NCBI GenBank assembly: GCA_040757115.1
Contig: JBFLYA010000027.1
Coordinates: 1 to 27,956, forward strand
DNA length: 27,956 nucleotides
Origin: a bacterium
GTDB taxonomy: Bacteria > UBA9089 > CG2-30-40-21 > SBAY01
Direction: 5' to 3'
Shown one piece after another: positions 10,317 through 25,562 of the stretch (position 1 is its first letter; every line of letters starts with the position of its first letter). The position numbers were made by a program, and so were the translations under genes. The notes beneath the pieces were generated by a model, which saw only the letters and a list, made by a program, of their open reading frames with translations, was not told the origin of the DNA and searched no databases.

Positions 10317-10363
10317 GAGGAAAAACGGGCATGAGTCTGCGACTCACAAAGGGGGATGAAAAT
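10317..10363 (+). repeat. Covarying hairpin element, copy 1
   Basis: Flanks GAGGAAAAACGGGCA and CACAAAGGGGGATGAAAAT. Stem TGAGTC/GACTCA with loop TGC (10332-10346). Confidence 0.85.
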
Positions 10364-10366
10364 TAA

Positions 10367-10622
10367 GGGACTCGGGACTCGGGGCTCGGGATTCGGGAAT
10401 AAAAGAATCCCCTAACCTCTTAATCTCCCGCCAGCGGGGAGATAAAAAAATAAAAATCTGTGTCCTCTGCGAAATCTGCGGATTATTTTCAGGGGAAACG
10501 GACATGAGCTAGGGCTCACAAAGGGCAATGAAAATGGGAGAAGGACAACCCCCTAACCCCCTTTATTAAGGGGGAATTGCTGAGAGTTTCTTTCTTCCCG
10601 AATCCCGAGTCCCGAGTCCCGA
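10367..10622. repeat. Inverted repeat with (A)CTCGGG arms enclosing element copy 2
   Basis: The left arm (10367-10399) is built of GGGACTC-type units ending GGGATTCGGGAA. The right arm (10595-10622) begins TTCCCGAATCCCGAG and is its complement apart from one extra unit on the left. The arms enclose about 195 bp. The left arm recurs without a partner at 17746-17778. Confidence 0.85.
10485..10535 (+). repeat. Covarying hairpin element, copy 2
   Basis: Outer pair ATTTTCA (10485-10491) / TGAAAAT (10529-10535). Inner stem TGAGC/GCTCA with loop TAGG (10505-10518). Flanks GGGGAAACGGACA and CACAAAGGGCA. Confidence 0.88.
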
Positions 10623-10641
10623 TTTTCAGGAGGAAGTAAAA

Positions 10642-11229
10642 ATGTTTGATGTAATGTTAATAAAGGAATTTTATACTGATTATCTGGTTAAATGGCATCA
10701 GGATGAGTATCTTGAGATTGAGAATTACGAAGAAATTTATCAGATTATTTATAACTTGCATTTGACTAATTATCGTTTGTGGCATCAAGAAGATATTGCT
10801 CGGAGAACAGATGTGGCTGATAGGGTTATTGCAGATGTAAAGCAGAAGATTGATAAGTTAAATCAGAATAGAAATGATACTATTGAAAAGATTGATGAAT
10901 ATCTATGCCAGATATTACACCCACAAAACCTTTCTTTGCCAATGAATTCAGAAACCCCGGGAAGTATTCTGGACAGAATGTCGATACTTTCGCTTAAGAT
11001 ATACCATATGACTGAGGAGACAAAAAGGATAGATGTAGATTCTGAACATATAAAAACCTGCCAGGAAAAAGTCCATATCTTGAAAGAACAATTCGATGAT
11101 TTAAAAAATTGCCTTGAGGTTTTGCTTGAGGAAATTTTTACTGGTAAGAAAAGACTTAAAGTCTATCGCCAATTTAAGATGTATAATGACCCACGGCTAA
11201 ATCCACAACTTCGAGAAATTACCCACTAA
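10642..11229 (+). CDS. DUF4254 family protein
   Basis: 195 residues, all helical, no signal peptide or membrane segment. Signature text LTNYRLWHQEDIARRTDVAD, KQKIDKLNQNRNDTIEKIDE and PGSILDRMSILSLKIYHM matches DUF4254, a family of unknown biochemical role that is usually encoded beside GT9 or other glycosyltransferase genes. That fits the gene upstream and suggests a role in envelope glycan assembly. AGGAGG lies 8 nt before the ATG and comes from the end of a spacer repeat (TTTTCAGGAGG). The 350-bp repeat-filled gap suggests it may not be strictly co-transcribed with the glycosyltransferase gene. Confidence 0.85.
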   Translation: MFDVMLIKEFYTDYLVKWHQDEYLEIENYEEIYQIIYNLHLTNYRLWHQEDIARRTDVADRVIADVKQKIDKLNQNRNDTIEKIDEYLCQILHPQNLSLPMNSETPGSILDRMSILSLKIYHMTEETKRIDVDSEHIKTCQEKVHILKEQFDDLKNCLEVLLEEIFTGKKRLKVYRQFKMYNDPRLNPQLREITH

Positions 11230-11256: not shown

Positions 11257-11465
11257 GTAACCGTTCAGGTAATCCTTTACCGCAGAGACGCAGAGAAACA
11301 GAGAAGACATAGAAATAAAGTAACTATTCAGCCACTGATTAACACGGATTAGCACGGATAAAAAAATAAAATCAGTGTTTCATCTGTGTCCATCTGTGGC
11401 TGAATAGTTATCAATAAATTTTAATTTTTTCTCTGCGTCTCTGTGTCTCTGCGGTGAACGGTTAC
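11257..11465. repeat. Three-level nested palindrome
   Basis: Outer arms GTAACCGTTCA (11257-11267) / TGAACGGTTAC (11455-11465), exact. Middle arms from CCGCAGAGACGCAGAGA (11280) / ending CTCTGTGTCTCTGCGG (11454), imperfect. Inner arms TAACTATTCAGCCAC (11321-11335) / GTGGCTGAATAGTTA (11396-11410), exact. Right halves recur alone at 12068, 18576 and 25490. Confidence 0.9.
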
Positions 11466-13396: not shown

Positions 13397-13445
13397 CAGG
13401 AAAAACGGTCATCTCCACGACGTGGACACAAAGAACAATGAAAAT
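13397..13445 (+). repeat. Covarying hairpin element, copy 3
   Basis: Flanks CAGGAAAAACGGTCAT and CACAAAGAACAATGAAAAT. The stem is fully different from the other copies, TCCAC/GTGGA (13414-13426), but still paired. The outer ATTTTCA is lost (CAGTCA). Confidence 0.82.
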
Positions 13446-13555
13446 AGCACGCTGATGACGCGGAGGTCGCGGATATTTCGCGGATAAAAAATATATTATA
13501 GAAAAATCCGCTAAAATCCGTTAAATCCGCGTTATCCGTGTGCTATTTTAACATT

Positions 13556-13608
13556 ATTTTTCAGGAGAACGCTCATGAACCGTAGGTTCACAACAGGAGA
13601 ATGAAAAT
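13556..13608 (+). repeat. Covarying hairpin element, copy 4
   Basis: Outer pair ATTTTTCA / TGAAAAT (13602-13608). Inner stem TGAACC/GGTTCA with loop GTA (13576-13590). 5' flank GGAGAACGCTCA. Confidence 0.85.
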
Positions 13609-13735
13609 AGGGGAAAAACAGGGTGGAGGAAAGATTTTCTCTCTACTCTCTACTCTCTACTTTCTACTCTCTACTTCCTATTTTCATGAGAATTCCCTAT
13701 TTCACTAACGCATTACCTTCACCCTATTTTTATTA

Positions 13736-13764
13736 TTGACAAACTGTAAAGTAAATGGTATAGT
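13736..13764 (+). promoter_or_regulatory. Promoter of the DHS-like gene, leaderless
   Basis: TTGACA (13736-13741), a 17-bp spacer and TATAGT (13759-13764). Only six bases (TTAATT) separate the -10 box from the ATG at 13771, so transcription should start at the start codon itself. Confidence 0.8.
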
Positions 13765-13770
13765 TTAATT

Positions 13771-14730
13771 ATGCCAAATAATTATGAACAGATTGATTTA
13801 AGTAAAATAAAGACATATCCAATAAAAAACCGTAAAAATCTGGTCAAACTAAAAGATTTTGTTAGACTTCTACCCAGAGATGCTGCTCTTAAAGAGTTTA
13901 TTGATTCCCTGCCCGATATTTTAAAAGGGGCTGATTTGAAGGAATTAATAAAGTCTATCTGCCAGGCATATCACCAAAAGAGACCTATTTTATGGGCTTG
14001 TGGAGCCCATGTAATAAAATGTGGGTTGTCACCCCTGATTATTGAACTAATGAAAAAAGGTTTAGTAAATTGTCTTTCGCTAAATGGTGCCGGGATTATT
14101 CATGATTTTGAGATTGCCTTGATAGGTGAAACATCAGAGGATGTCTCAAAAAGTCTTTTAGATGGTTCCTTTGGTATGGCAAAGGAAACCGGTGAACTAA
14201 TTAATGAGGCAATTATTGATGGGGCAAGACATAATCTTGGGATTGGCAGGGCAGTTGGTAAGATGATTTCAGAACAAAAACTTAAATATCGAGAATATAG
14301 TATTTTATATCAGGGGTTTGAATTAAATATCCCTATTACAGTCCATGTGGCTATTGGCACGGATATTATTCATCAACATCCAAATGCCTCAGGTGAGGCA
14401 ATTGGTAAAGGCAGTATGATTGATTTTCACATTTTTACTAACCAGGTGGCTAATTTAGAGGGTGGGGTGTTTATAAATATAGGTTCGGCGGTAATCATCC
14501 CGGAGGTATTTTTAAAGGCATTAACGATTGTTCGAAATTTAAACTACACGGTGGAAGATTTTGTCACTGCTAACTTTGATATGATGATACAATATCGACC
14601 AATGTCCAATATCGTTAAAAGACCAACGCTAAAAGCCGGAAAAGGATATTCATTTATTGGTCATCATGAAATAATGATGCCACTTTTGGCTTATGGGATA
14701 TTGGCGGAAATTCAGAGCAACGAAGGTTGA
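13771..14730 (+). CDS. Deoxyhypusine-synthase-like protein
   Basis: 319 residues, Rossmann-like, no signal peptide. Text such as LNGAGIIHDFEIALIGETSEDV, DGSFGMAKETGELINEA, AIGTDIIHQHPNASGEAIGK, LEGGVFINIGSAVIIPEVFL and TANFDMMIQYRPMSNIVKRP matches my recollection of bacterial proteins assigned to the deoxyhypusine synthase (DS) fold. The catalytic SWGK-type lysine segment of eukaryotic enzymes is not seen, so the hypusine reaction cannot be assumed; these bacterial homologues may use another amine or another substrate. The gene sits 79 bp before aroQ and about 2.3 kb before efp. A modification role on EF-P is only a hypothesis. Leaderless start. Confidence 0.55.
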   Translation: MPNNYEQIDLSKIKTYPIKNRKNLVKLKDFVRLLPRDAALKEFIDSLPDILKGADLKELIKSICQAYHQKRPILWACGAHVIKCGLSPLIIELMKKGLVNCLSLNGAGIIHDFEIALIGETSEDVSKSLLDGSFGMAKETGELINEAIIDGARHNLGIGRAVGKMISEQKLKYREYSILYQGFELNIPITVHVAIGTDIIHQHPNASGEAIGKGSMIDFHIFTNQVANLEGGVFINIGSAVIIPEVFLKALTIVRNLNYTVEDFVTANFDMMIQYRPMSNIVKRPTLKAGKGYSFIGHHEIMMPLLAYGILAEIQSNEG

Positions 14731-14770
14731 TATTAACTGCGTTTACCCTGTGTCTATGCATAAAAATTAA

Positions 14771-14799
14771 TTGCATTTTATTTAGTAATATGTTATAAT
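14771..14799 (+). promoter_or_regulatory. Promoter of aroQ, near-leaderless
   Basis: TTGCAT (14771-14776), a 17-bp spacer and an extended -10 TGTTATAAT (box 14794-14799). Start of transcription ~14806, three bases before the ATG. A GAGGT at 14802-14806 would be mostly outside the transcript. Confidence 0.75.
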
Positions 14800-14808
14800 G
14801 TGAGGTAA

Positions 14809-15246
14809 ATGAATAAAATATTGGTTATCCACGGTCCTAATCTAAATTTATTAGGGAAAAGAGAACCCGAAGTCTATGGGAATATAACCCTTGCGGAGAT
14901 TAATCAAAGATTAAAAGAATTAGCCAATGAAAAGCAAATAGACCTGAAAATCATTCAGAGTAATCATGAAGGTGAGATTGTAGATGAGATTGGCAAGGCA
15001 GACGCTAAATTTATTATAATTAATCCCGGGGCATTTACGCATACAAGTATTGCTATTCGTGATGCCATCGCCGCCACAGGTATTCCAACGATAGAGGTGC
15101 ATCTATCTAATATTTATAAAAGAGAGGAATTCAGGCATAAATCCCTGATTGCACCTGTTTGTATTGGACAAATTAGTGGTTTTGGAGTGACTGGTTATCT
15201 GTTAGCCTTCCAGTCTGCTATTGAATTGATGAAAAGTGGAGGGTAG
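14809..15246 (+). CDS. aroQ: Type II 3-dehydroquinate dehydratase
   Basis: 145 residues, normal for the dodecameric type II enzyme of the shikimate pathway, which removes water from 3-dehydroquinate. Motifs: [17 protein letters not shown] (catalytic Tyr in EVYG and loop Arg), [28 protein letters not shown], and [17 protein letters not shown] (catalytic His), then [13 protein letters not shown]. It leads the cluster aroQ, DUF5618, pepP-like, efp, all on the plus strand. aroQ next to an Xaa-Pro peptidase and efp is a known conserved arrangement (for example yqhS-yqhT-efp in Bacillus). Confidence 0.97.
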
Positions 15247-15248
15247 AT

Positions 15249-15680
15249 GTGAAGAAAGAAAAAGAATATGATAAGAAATCTTTAGCCTCAGATTATTTTA
15301 ATGAGGCAGTTAGATTCTATAAGAATGGAAAAGAGATATTAAAAAATGTCCCGATTGTATATAAAAGTTACGAGGATTCAAAACCCGTAGCAGAGGCAGC
15401 CGGAATATGTTATCTTAGTATGCTGAAAGCTTTAGATGGGTATCTTATTCTAAAAGGGATAGATAAGGCTAATTTACCTACTTCTTATCAGGGCTATTGG
15501 CAAACATTATCTAAAGATATGGTTCATAATGGTAAGGTAAAATCTGCCATAAAAATTGCTTACGAGAACCTTCATATCTTTGGTTATTATCGAGGTGGAA
15601 CTGGAGTTTCAATGATAAAAGAAGGTTTTCAGTGTGCTAAATTTGTGATTGAACATCTATCTCATAAAAAAATTACCTAA
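15249..15680 (+). CDS. DUF5618 / HEPN-like helical protein
   Basis: 143 residues from a GTG start; GGAGG (15239-15243) is well placed and an ATG two bases earlier is followed at once by a stop. It begins 2 nt after the aroQ stop, so it is coupled to it. All helical: YFNEAVRFYKNGKEILKN, AAGICYLSMLKALDGYLILK and ENLHIFGYYRGGTGVSMIKEG. The ALDGYL / LH..GYYRGG.......GF pattern matches DUF5618 proteins, which look like HEPN-type four-helix bundles. No RxxxxH HEPN nuclease motif is seen. Function unknown. It is an insertion in the usual aroQ-pepP-efp order. Confidence 0.72.
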   Translation: MKKEKEYDKKSLASDYFNEAVRFYKNGKEILKNVPIVYKSYEDSKPVAEAAGICYLSMLKALDGYLILKGIDKANLPTSYQGYWQTLSKDMVHNGKVKSAIKIAYENLHIFGYYRGGTGVSMIKEGFQCAKFVIEHLSHKKIT

Positions 15681-15681
15681 C

Positions 15682-16749
15682 ATGGATAGAATCAACAAAT
15701 TACAAACGATATTATCAAAAAAGAAATTAGATGGATTATTGGTATCTAATATCACCAATGTTCAGTATCTAACAGGATTTACAGGCTCTTCGGCTGATTT
15801 GTTGGTTACTTCCCAAAAGATATACTTTATTACGGATTCAAGATACCTTGAACAGGCACAAAAAGAAGTCCATCAGGGTGTTGAGTTCATTAAAGAAGAA
15901 AAAGGGTTAGTTAAGACCTTAAAAAAACTCCTGCCAAAACAAAAACTTAAAAATTTAGGTTTAGAAACTGATTACCTGACTTATACTCAATATCAAAAAC
16001 TCGTTAAAGAATTAACATTTGTAGAATTAGTTCCAACCGAAGGATTGGTTTATAAGTTAAGATTAATCAAAGAGAAAGATGAAATACAGAAGATAAAATA
16101 TGCCTGTCAAATAGCAGAAGATGCCTTTAAAGTCCTATTACCGTTTATCAATGAGGGTATGAGTGAGCATGATGTTGCCATTGAGTTAGAGTATTTAATC
16201 AAGAAAAAAGGCGGCGAGATTGCCTTTGAGACAATTGTTGCTTCAGGCTGGCGTTCAAGTCTGCCGCATGGAAAACCATCTCATAAAAAATTAAAGATGG
16301 GTGATTTTGTTATATTTGATTTTGGGGCGAGATTTAAAGGTTATAATTGCGATTTAACTCGCACTTTAATCCTTGGTAAGCCATCGCCAAGACAAAAATT
16401 AGTTTATCAATCTGTCAAAAACGCACAAGAAAAGGTATTAGAGAATTTAAGAGCCGGGGTAGAATTTGCTGAGGTAGATAAAATTGCCCGTGAAAAAATT
16501 GCCGAAAACGGTTTAAAACGATTCTTTGGACATAACTTAGGACATGGTATAGGCATTGAGGTTCACGAAATACCTCATATATCTTCTTCAAATAAAACCT
16601 TAATGAAATCAGGTATGGTTGTAACCATTGAACCGGGTATCTACATTCCAAACTTCGGTGGAGTAAGAATCGAAGATACAGTGCTGATAACTGAGAATGG
16701 GCATAAGGTATTAAGCGATAATGTGTCTAAAGAATTGATTGCATTATGA
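15682..16749 (+). CDS. Xaa-Pro aminopeptidase (M24B family)
   Basis: 355 residues from the ATG at 15682, one base after the DUF5618 stop; an in-frame TTG at 15649 is not needed. There is no clear Shine-Dalgarno, so translation is probably coupled. N-terminal creatinase-like domain (~1-120), then the pita-bread peptidase domain. The five metal ligands of M24 are visible: Asp in FVIFDFGARF, Asp in YNCDLTRTL, His in LGHGIGIEVHE, Glu in VTIEPGIYI and Glu in GVRIEDTVLI. It cleaves N-terminal residues before proline. Its place between aroQ and efp is conserved in many bacteria; EF-P helps ribosomes through proline runs, which gives a loose proline theme. Confidence 0.92.
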   Translation: MDRINKLQTILSKKKLDGLLVSNITNVQYLTGFTGSSADLLVTSQKIYFITDSRYLEQAQKEVHQGVEFIKEEKGLVKTLKKLLPKQKLKNLGLETDYLTYTQYQKLVKELTFVELVPTEGLVYKLRLIKEKDEIQKIKYACQIAEDAFKVLLPFINEGMSEHDVAIELEYLIKKKGGEIAFETIVASGWRSSLPHGKPSHKKLKMGDFVIFDFGARFKGYNCDLTRTLILGKPSPRQKLVYQSVKNAQEKVLENLRAGVEFAEVDKIAREKIAENGLKRFFGHNLGHGIGIEVHEIPHISSSNKTLMKSGMVVTIEPGIYIPNFGGVRIEDTVLITENGHKVLSDNVSKELIAL

Positions 16750-17071
16750 ACTGATAACTAATTACCATTCACCAGTTACCAATAGGGTTCTGCAAAATAG
16801 GATTTGGGGGAGACAATAAATAAATATTAAATATTAAATATCAAAATGCAAAATTACAAATCAAATTTCAAGTTGATAGTTGATAGTTTATAGTTGATAA
16901 GTTGAAGGACTATAGACTATAAACTATAAACCATAAACTATAAACGAGTTTTGCATTTTGCTCTTTGGAGGAAATTGATAAAAATAGAGGTTTTAAATAC
17001 CCGCTTAAAAACTACAGTTTCTTAGTTTTGCAGGACTCTACAGTTACCAATTTTAAGGAGGGTTAAAATAA
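16750..17071. other. Spacer between peptidase gene and efp
   Basis: Holds CATTCACCAGTTACC (also near 12478), an imperfect pair GGTTCTGCAAAAT (~16786) / TTTTGCAGGACTCTACAGTTAC (~17025), an AGTTTATAGT-type palindrome (16872-16946), the phrase gcattttgctctttggagg (also ~25400), and the AAGGAGGG site of efp. No promoter is obvious. Confidence 0.7.
16872..16946. repeat. Palindromic array of (GA/AC)TATAAACTA words
   Basis: Left arm of GTTGATAGT/TTTATAGTTGATA words, centre TTGAAGGACTATAGACTAT, right arm of ACTATAAACCATAAACTA words. The same design and centre occur between pheS and pheT at 21894-22058. Confidence 0.88.
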
Positions 17072-17635
17072 ATGATTGGTGCAAATGATTTAAGACCAGG
17101 AATGACGATTGAATTGAATGGAGAGATTTTCTCCTGCACAGAATTCCAGCATATCAAGCCGGGTAAAGGAGGGGCATTTGTCCGATTAAAATTAAAAAAT
17201 TTTAGTACCGGCGCGGTTATAGATAAAACCGTTAGACCAGAGGAAAAATTCCCATTAGTCAGAATATCCCGCAAACCTATGCAATATCTTTATCAGGAGG
17301 GAGGTAATTACTACTTTATGGATACCGAATCTTATGAACAATTCGGGCTCTCAAAAGATATACTAAGTAGTAATGTCAATTACCTGAAAGAGAATATGGA
17401 GGTAACGGTTTTATTCCATGATGAGACGATAATCGGCATAGAATTACCAGTAACGATAGAACTAAAGGTTATCACCACTGAACCAGGTTTTAAAGGAAAT
17501 ACCGTTTCAGGTGCAACTAAACAGGCAGAATTGGAAACAGGATTAAAGGTCCAGGTGCCTTTATTTGTAGAGGAAGGTGAAATCCTTAAAATCGATACTC
17601 GCACTGGAGAATATATAGAGAGGGTAAGAGGTTAG
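17072..17635 (+). CDS. efp: Translation elongation factor P
   Basis: 187 residues, the normal length, with three OB/KOW-like domains. EF-P binds ribosomes stalled on consecutive prolines and restores peptide-bond formation. The tip loop reads QHIKPGKGGAFVRLKL; the lysine that is modified in other bacteria is Lys32 (PGKG). The end GFKGNTVSGATKQAELETGL and QVPLFVEEGEILKIDTRTGEYIERV is typical. AAGGAGGG lies 9 nt before the ATG. No epmA, epmB or ymfI-type modification gene is in the window, so the state of Lys32 is open. It ends the aroQ cluster and is followed by a long repeat field. Confidence 0.97.
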   Translation: MIGANDLRPGMTIELNGEIFSCTEFQHIKPGKGGAFVRLKLKNFSTGAVIDKTVRPEEKFPLVRISRKPMQYLYQEGGNYYFMDTESYEQFGLSKDILSSNVNYLKENMEVTVLFHDETIIGIELPVTIELKVITTEPGFKGNTVSGATKQAELETGLKVQVPLFVEEGEILKIDTRTGEYIERVRG

Positions 17636-17690
17636 AAGTAAAGTAAGTATTTAGCCATCTAAAGTGAAACAACAGGCAGTGGTTGTTAGG

Positions 17691-17740
17691 TTTCAGGAGA
17701 AACGGTCATGAGCCTGCGGCACACAAAGGGGGATGAAAAT
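17691..17740 (+). repeat. Covarying hairpin element, copy 5
   Basis: 5' flank TTTCAGGAGAAACGGTCA, 3' flank CACAAAGGGGGATGAAAAT. Stem TGAGCC/GGCACA (17709-17723) with one A-A mismatch. The only copy with an imperfect stem. Continues into a near copy of 10364-10480. Confidence 0.82.
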
Positions 17741-17860
17741 TAAGGGACTCGGGACTCGGGGCTCGGGATTCGGGAATAAAAGAATCCCCTAACCTTTTAA
17801 TCTCCCGCCAGTGGGGAGATAAAAAAATAAAAATCTGTGTAATCTGCGAAATCTGCGGAT

Positions 17861-17913
17861 ATTTTTAGGAGAAACCAGGTATGAACCTGCGGTTCACAAA
17901 CGAGGATGAAAAT
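17861..17913 (+). repeat. Covarying hairpin element, copy 6
   Basis: 5' end ATTTTTAGGAGAAACCAGG, 3' flank CACAAACGAGGATGAAAAT. Stem TGAACC/GGTTCA with loop TGC (17882-17896). Confidence 0.83.
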
Positions 17914-17981
17914 TGAGCATAGAGATTAGAGATTAGCAAGAGTGCAGGTTCTAATTCACTAATTCTCTAATCTCTAATTAA

Positions 17982-18165
17982 CTATTTTCAGGAGAAACGG
18001 ACATGAGCCAAGGCTCACAAAGGGCAATGAAAATGGGAGAAGGACAACCCCCTAACCCCCTTTATTAAGGGGGAATATGTGTTCTAAACCAGAGGATACG
18101 AGTCTGTGGATACTATACTAATTCGCTAATCTCTAATTCACTAATTCGCTATTTTCAGGGGAAAT
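17982..18165 (+). repeat. Direct duplication, first copy
   Basis: 184 bp that by eye is identical to 18259-18442. Contains element copy 7, a CCCCCTAACCCCC / TTAAGGGGG partial palindrome, and a tail of ctaattcgctaat words ending ATTTTCAGGGGAAAT. The first ~90 bp also match 10482-10575. Confidence 0.9.
17984..18034 (+). repeat. Covarying hairpin element, copy 7
   Basis: Outer pair ATTTTCA (17984-17990) / TGAAAAT (18028-18034). Stem TGAGC/GCTCA (or TGAGCC/GGCTCA) at 18004-18017, loop CAAG. Confidence 0.88.
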
Positions 18166-18258
18166 AGTGGTAGGAGATAGAAGGTGGGAGGTAAGGAGAT
18201 AAGCGGGAGGAGTGATGTTTTCTTTACTTTCTACTTTCTACTCTCTACTTTCTACTTC

Positions 18259-18442
18259 CTATTTTCAGGAGAAACGGACATGAGCCAAGGCTCACAAAGG
18301 GCAATGAAAATGGGAGAAGGACAACCCCCTAACCCCCTTTATTAAGGGGGAATATGTGTTCTAAACCAGAGGATACGAGTCTGTGGATACTATACTAATT
18401 CGCTAATCTCTAATTCACTAATTCGCTATTTTCAGGGGAAAT
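18259..18442 (+). repeat. Direct duplication, second copy
   Basis: Second copy of 17982-18165, 277 bp downstream of the first; the 93-bp gap carries ctctactttctac words. Confidence 0.9.
18261..18311 (+). repeat. Covarying hairpin element, copy 8
   Basis: Same sequence as copy 7, as part of the 184-bp duplication. Outer pair 18261-18267 / 18305-18311. Confidence 0.88.
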
Positions 18443-18575
18443 GTATAACTGAAAGGTAATGAGTCTTGCGAAGGACTAAAATTTCCCATTTTTCATTTCC
18501 TATTTTACATTTTACATTTATTTTTCCTTTGCGTCTCTGCGATGAATTAGTCTAATCGCACAGGTGGGGATTTTT

Positions 18576-18614: not shown

Positions 18615-18751
18615 GATTTAGTTTATAATTCTTCGTGCCCTTCGTGTTCTTCGTGGTTTTAAAAGATGTGAGAAAGGTTAATCTAACCGCACAGGTGGAA
18701 AAAATTACCTTTGCATCCTTTGCGTCCCCAAAAATTTATAAAAATTTTCTA

Positions 18752-18787: not shown

Positions 18788-19009
18788 AGAATGAAACACA
18801 GGTGTGAGTCCCTACCGTGTTTGTGATGAAATGGTTTTTTTTTGAGCTAGCACCTTTTTATAGGGAGCTTTACAACTCTGAGTGTGGCATGCAGACTGCC
18901 TTTTAAAAAGGTGTAAGTAGAAGCATCAAAGCACTTAGGTGAGCACCCACTTACACAAAAGGGTTCAAAAATTCCATTTCACACGGCATTATGGTGGGGA
19001 CTTTTTTTG
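18788..19009 (+). ncRNA. Structured non-coding RNA candidate, possibly 6S RNA (ssrS)
   Basis: About 220 nt from a good promoter to a T-run (19002-19008). The ends pair: AGTCCC (18807-18812) with GGGACT (18997-19002), then CCGTGT (18815-18820) with ACACGG (18981-18986), then TGAAATGG (18827-18834) with CCATTTCA (18974-18981), then TTTTTGA with TCAAAAA. Inside are two branches: CACCTTTTTA (18851-18860) with TAAAAAGGTG (18904-18913), and GTGTAAGT (18911-18918) with ACTTACAC (18949-18956), which overlap by three bases and may be alternatives. No open frame. A long closing stem broken by an open centre, the length and the promoter/terminator recall 6S RNA, and GGTGAGCA also occurs in E. coli 6S, but I cannot confirm the family. 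It is unlike the surrounding repeats and appears once. Confidence 0.55.
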
Positions 19010-19060: not shown

Positions 19061-19119
19061 TTCAAATCAGGACAGGTGAAACTTCCATGCCCCTGTAGGG
19101 CACAAATGACGATGAAAAT
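19061..19119 (+). repeat. Covarying hairpin element, copy 9
   Basis: A divergent copy: AATCAGGACAGGTGAAAC leader, stem TGCCC/GGGCA with loop CTGTA (19088-19102), then CACAAATGACGATGAAAAT. Confidence 0.75.
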
Positions 19120-19203
19120 GTAGTTTTGTAACTCAAATAATTACAATAACTTACGAACATTTTCAAGGGAAATCGAACTGGATTCGTGGTTCGGGAAAGT
19201 ATA

Positions 19204-19273
19204 GGACGCAGATAAACGCAGATTTTCAGGATTTTTAAATATACATCCTGATAATCTGCGAAAATCTGCGTCC
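19204..19273. repeat. Imperfect inverted repeat after the MvhD-like gene
   Basis: GGACGCAGATAAACGCAGAT...CAGGAT pairs with ATCCTG...AATCTGCG...ATCTGCGTCC around an AT-rich loop. It is followed by ATTTTCAGGAGAA (19282). There is no clear T-run on the minus strand, so its terminator role is doubtful. Confidence 0.8.
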
Positions 19274-19294
19274 CATAACCTATTTTCAGGAGAA

Positions 19295-25200: not shown

Positions 25201-25489
25201 GCAAAACTCAAAACTACAACTAAAAACTTCTCCATCAGTCGCAATAAATCTCAATGAATCTATTAGTTTTAAGGTTTTGAGATGAGGTTTTGAGTTTTGA
25301 CATTTGAGTTTTGAGTTGATATTGTCCCATCTGATGGACACGGCTGAACGCTTACGAGATAATTTTACATTTTGATATGTAATTTTTATATTTGCTTTTT
25401 GCATTTTGCTCTTTGGAGGAAATCCCTTTTGGACACCAAATCTGCATAGATTTCATTATTTAGAGTTATTTTCAGACACCACCGATTTT

Positions 25490-25562
25490 CCGTGTTTTAT
25501 CCGTGTCCATCTGTGGCTGAATAGTTACTATTTTTCTTTGTGACTCTGTGGTGAACGATTAC
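25490..25562 (+). repeat. Half copy of the nested palindrome
   Basis: CCGTGTTTTATCCGTGTCCA, GTGGCTGAATAGTTAC, then CTTTGTGACTCTGTGGTGAA and CGATTAC: the right half of 11257-11465 without the left half. Confidence 0.8.

Follow-up and report, generated by a model that had tools for sequence, protein, structure and literature searches.

Pneumococcal BOX elements are modular and intergenic, with a variable internal part and a fixed set of A-B-C modules. The GC clusters of yeast mitochondria were the subject of a 1989 paper by Weiller, in the title of which the words 'single elements and tandem arrays' reportedly occur. Palindromes of GC clusters have been described as merging and shuffling (PMC4478555), and REPs are described by their GTAG or CGTC tags (PMC3733652, PMC8266576). 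The repeats reported here were analysed in the window, a stretch of 27,956 nucleotides of bacterial DNA (contig JBFLYA010000027.1), and in stretches fetched from the rest of its draft genome (G000) and from a congener (G001), the one same-genus genome found. Literature searches returned no description of this module family. The explanation to which we give somewhat better than even chances is that each array is built of mobile modules, palindrome-based and non-autonomous, which use GGRGAA as their docking site, stack there and are shuffled by recombination.

Between 13.4 and 18.4 kb of the window, successive units meet at a fixed joint in which ATTTTCA is followed by GGRGAA. The units are ordered as GGRGAAACGNNCATG, the covarying hairpin HP1, CAAANGRNGATGAAAAT, a cargo and ATTTTCA, so that the module spans from GGRGAA to ATTTTCA and is two-part, with a length of roughly 75-400 nt. 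The HP1 head consists of GGRGAAACGNNCATG, stem, loop, stem, CACAAA and NGRNGATGAAAAT, and the stem has the form TGNNNN/NNNNCA. An initial sequence-only reading had proposed that the system is modular and its junction fixed, and this is strongly supported. Across the draft genome to which the window belongs, a degenerate pattern of the unit core matched 63+62 = 125 times, against 0+0 times when read backwards as a control, and a stricter pattern found 71 copies in the congener. Inserts come after TGAAAAT and close with ATTTTCA, as that reading had described, the GGRGAA of the next copy standing directly after; the junction is fixed as ATTTTCA/GGRGAA in both genomes and its position does not vary freely between copies. 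The HP1 stems comprise 35 distinct sequences, in which the fraction of Watson-Crick cells was 0.74, compared to 0.43 (maximum 0.59) with shuffled partners, and HP1 is therefore a real, covarying hairpin. Parsing of the stretches fetched from the two genomes gave 156 units with HP1 and 29 candidates without it, a few of which are spurious, giving about 25 headless units, that is, cargo lacking HP1. The cargo is 31-362 nt long (median 96) and falls into 30 classes. Particular types of HP1 tend to go with particular cargo classes without being locked to them, the heads of class 0 being 27 AACC, 7 TCCA and 4 CCC[CT]. All modules within each array point one way, and most modules are without a gene.

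Four arrays were found in the window, all on the forward strand. Array A (10317-10634) has two HP1 units and terminates on the right in GGAGGA, which is also the Shine-Dalgarno for an ORF at 10642-11229 (DUF4254). Array B (13399-13687) also has two HP1 units, the first with an ATCCGTG-type hairpin as cargo (13446-13563) and the second with a ctctact-type cargo (13609-13686); it precedes an ORF at 13771, yet its end is not at the Shine-Dalgarno of that ORF, and its position is occupied by different DNA in the congener. Array C (17696-18441) lies downstream of EF-P and is composed of four HP1 units and one headless unit, the latter at 18158-18267 and consisting of GGGGAAA, a ctctact-type cargo and ATTTTCA without HP1. 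A block within array C is duplicated as a perfect tandem copy (17982-18165 = 18259-18442), and a non-palindromic, chimeric-looking cargo with the ATTTTCA tail at 18035-18157 is present a second time at 18312-18434. Array D (19075-19294) has one HP1 unit and one headless unit. Directly 3' of array C is a 6S RNA gene (18806-19004, Rfam RF00013, 79 bits), which is kept in the congener, where array C is absent; it was the sole match to curated Rfam families in the window, and the modules matched none.

Palindromy beyond the shared 7-nt ends, with the threshold set above the 95th percentile of controls in which left and right arms came from different classes, was displayed by 11 of the 30 cargo classes, corresponding to 74 of the 156 units. 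The claim that the cargo is palindromic thus holds for these units but not for the rest, and the three examples first put forward for it differ accordingly. That at 13441-13549 is a true inverted repeat, with arms of 37 nt (13441-13477 and 13513-13549) that are 78% complementary; it closes ahead of the next copy, with AACATT in between, and its class occurs across the phylum. The example at 13601-13687 has 11-nt ends, ATGAAAATAGG/CCTATTTTCAT, and its class folds with a z of -4.0, but its arms reach only the 83rd percentile of the mismatched-arm controls. At 18028-18151 there is no palindrome beyond the constant 7 nt, the class being at the 2nd percentile of the controls. Arms also paired across classes. 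In class 2, the left cargo arm (GGGACTCGGGACTCGGGG) scored 12.5 with its own right arm, as against 53.5 and 47.0 with the foreign right arms of class 12 and class 3, respectively, and the best partner of the class 7 left arm was the class 2 right arm. A single left arm, GGGAGAAGGACAACCCCC, occurs joined to three different right arms. Several of the non-palindromic cargoes look like chimeras of two palindromes, a pattern expected from arm exchange. An internal periodicity of 7-10 nt was seen in most of the larger cargo classes and would fit an origin of the palindromes by template switching.

The initial reading further held that palindromic cargo was put into a pre-existing element, or that template switching made hairpins grow where the junction is fixed. 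The fixed ends agree with this, as do the many cargoes that form long hairpins and contain internal repeats of 7-10 nt. However, half of the units are non-palindromic, and no cargo-free element was found in the 397 kb scanned. As headless cargoes do exist, it is the tail ATTTTCA, and not the head, that forms the obligatory edge; insertion of cargo into the element is not supported, and we consider this model very improbable as a whole.

Pieces of the cargo occur in most of the phylum genomes sampled, among which HP1 together with the junction was found in this genus only, and the nearest family and order relatives had no copies of the core pattern. Public genomes and viral contigs searched for the combined junction and HP1 motif gave only scattered single matches, which were read as chance. 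Elsewhere in the phylum the ATCCGTG hairpin (class 7) is nested inside other palindromes, including those of a family ended by GTAACYRTTCAG/CTGAAYRGTTAC. That one and the same cargo arose several times independently is unlikely because cargo homology is phylum-wide. The GTAACYRTTCAG/CTGAAYRGTTAC family is itself a second palindrome family of the window (11257-11454, 18603 and 25344-25517) and of L128 and L133-L135, nested with other hairpins and present in other families of the phylum as well. In G001 it lies inside or beside arrays, sometimes enclosing a small ORF which, going by its motif, we take to be GxxExxY-like. A repeated TTARTCTAAYCGCACAGGTGG motif at 18547-18567 and 18678-18698 belongs to a third family of inverted repeats (CTAACCGCACAGGT/ACCTGTGCGGTTAG), which is found in L128 as well.

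An outer boundary which had at first been missed was revealed at the right end of the arrays, which is usually the Shine-Dalgarno of a gene. Counting ORFs of at least 60 codons that start 6-20 nt past the array right end, 40 of 63 arrays ended in this way (29/48 in the window's own genome and 11/15 in the congener). Of positions drawn at random from these stretches, about 12% lay at such a distance from an ORF start, and of the internal junctions, 1/48 and 2/26 in the two genomes, respectively. Several arrays had no ORF at their right end. The left-most copies are preceded by unrelated host DNA, most often immediately ahead of GGAGAAAC. The position and orientation just ahead of ORF starts, together with HP1 covariation, would also suit functional leader RNAs, in which the arrays serve as 5'-UTR regulators and a Shine-Dalgarno/ATG mimic in HP1 (GGAGAAACGCTCATG) competes with the real start. 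Against such a role, cargo folding is as strong on one strand as on the other (mean z -3.3 in each case), G-U pairs are not clearly enriched on the transcript strand, and there are the arrays that lack an ORF at the right end. Close relatives differ in the number and type of modules that a given gene has, and it is this changing array content that makes the leader role less likely; we hold it to be very improbable.

Orthologous stretches of the two genomes had flanks that were about 97% identical (about 93-99%), and between such flanks the docking points were usually retained and nearly all units replaced. Both outer boundaries were common and the modules almost wholly different at L018/L142, L021/L131, L051/L141, L165/L197 and L174/L188, while arrays were partly common to both genomes at L047/L124, L027/L139 and 10.3 kb of the window/L140. 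At L143, L144, L193 and L196 the relative was array-free, with a native Shine-Dalgarno at the equivalent place, and the spacer from Shine-Dalgarno to start codon was not equal in filled and array-free alleles. When examined for target-site duplication, the array-free alleles retained the native Shine-Dalgarno and the flanks carried other repeats; none was a clean empty site complete on both sides, which leaves insertion itself a presumed event. The two assemblies are drafts in many pieces, and these repeats often stand at contig ends, but since the synteny of both flanks is preserved, misassembly is an unlikely cause of the array differences, although it may contribute in places. Modules of the same class were as divergent within genomes as between them (in the largest class, by about 11%). 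Where modules of the two genomes matched most closely (97-100%), the loci were mostly not identified as orthologous.

The main rival explanation is pure recombination of old repeats, by which the families spread long ago and present turnover would be homologous or microhomology recombination between similar arrays, through gene conversion, unequal crossing-over or single-strand annealing and without transposition. That divergence is the same within a genome as between the two, and shows no young burst, is in line with this, as are the perfect tandem duplicates and ABAB blocks, the arm swaps, and a first or last module, or half-module, common to both genomes at some orthologous loci. Pure recombination leaves unexplained how the repeats spread to dozens of separate gene starts and why arrays are present in one ortholog and absent in the other at the four loci above, and we regard it as possible but rather unlikely.

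In the favoured explanation, the GGRGAA motif at which a module docks would in most cases be the Shine-Dalgarno belonging to the downstream gene, and the module would leave ATTTTCA/GGRGAA at its right edge, by which the ribosome-binding site is kept and a new dock is made. Because the right edge is always ATTTTCA/GGRGAA, the gene retains a ribosome-binding site and modules can stack in one orientation. Entry to new sites may be an active ssDNA-hairpin event or a microhomology-guided one at GGRGAA, and most turnover would come from recombination in which repeated junctions or cargo arms serve as partners. The GGRGAA at the junction could be either a target duplication made on insertion or module-borne. 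A bolder proposal, which we make tentatively and consider doubtful, is a dedicated mobility system with the Shine-Dalgarno (GGRGAA) as its dock, in which hairpin modules insert with the ribosome-binding site left intact, restore the dock, stack, trade arms and remodel the gene starts of the genus faster than point mutation. If true, it would be a bacterial counterpart of the mitochondrial palindromic clusters, in which insertions beside genes are tolerated as the dock is a restored ribosome-binding site. With two close genomes that have the same docks and different modules, one can measure directly how fast, where and by what mechanism palindromes move, and the swapped arms give a view onto the origin of mosaic hairpins.

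The candidate enzymes examined, Y1 transposase and integron integrase, are both encoded, yet neither they nor any autonomous element could be tied to the modules. Y1 transposase genes occur throughout the phylum with no clear module array beside them, and the six Y1 loci in G000 displayed, apart from some loose matches to HP1, a single stray junction-like match in L011 and another in L013. As no module array brackets Y1 (Y1_Tnp) genes, neither membership of REP/RAYT nor RAYT-driven spread is supported. The genome encodes a full-length integron integrase (G000 contig C39, L230 5644-6573; 368.6 bits vs a cut-off of 265), with broken or degraded copies in L231, L232, L233 and L235. A simple, crude scan detected no attC-like sites at ten intI loci, and the modules are not adjacent to intI; membership of integrons is thus not supported, although the integrase is present. 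Two RVT_1 hits were obtained for reverse transcriptase. In the congener, an extra retropepsin-like (clan AA) gene stands between the array and the next gene (L125, 1715-2077, reverse strand), where the orthologous site of G000 has none; it was rejected as a simple moved cassette because its best match in G000 is only 68% identical.

Among known systems, integron arrays resemble these loci in their tandem cassettes with hairpins, in cassette-like exchange and in the integron-type integrase encoded by the genome. BOX elements are set apart, by their description rather than by sequence comparison, in that their A-B-C set is fixed whereas the cargo here is highly diverse. The modules share with REP/BIME/REPIN the mosaic arrays, the hairpin heads and an extragenic palindromic copy number above 100 (the 125 matches), which is in the range required of REP/BIME. 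They have no recognisable GTAG or CGTC tag before the palindrome, HP1 being flanked by GGRGAAACGNNCATG and CACAAA in the copies examined; they all point one way in each array, unlike the alternating orientation in REP/BIME; and they lie upstream, at ribosome-binding sites, whereas REP/BIME/REPIN are mainly found downstream of genes. The closest analogue is the GC clusters of yeast mitochondria, which are likewise short palindromic intergenic elements in tandem arrays with a short target motif, whose palindromes merge and shuffle, whose presence varies between strains and for which no enzyme of their own is known. Unlike the GC clusters, the present modules reside in a bacterial chromosome, are two-part, have cargo classes that are phylum-wide and are usually bounded on the right by a Shine-Dalgarno. 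Docking at the Shine-Dalgarno is the unusual feature of this family among palindromic, non-autonomous intergenic elements.
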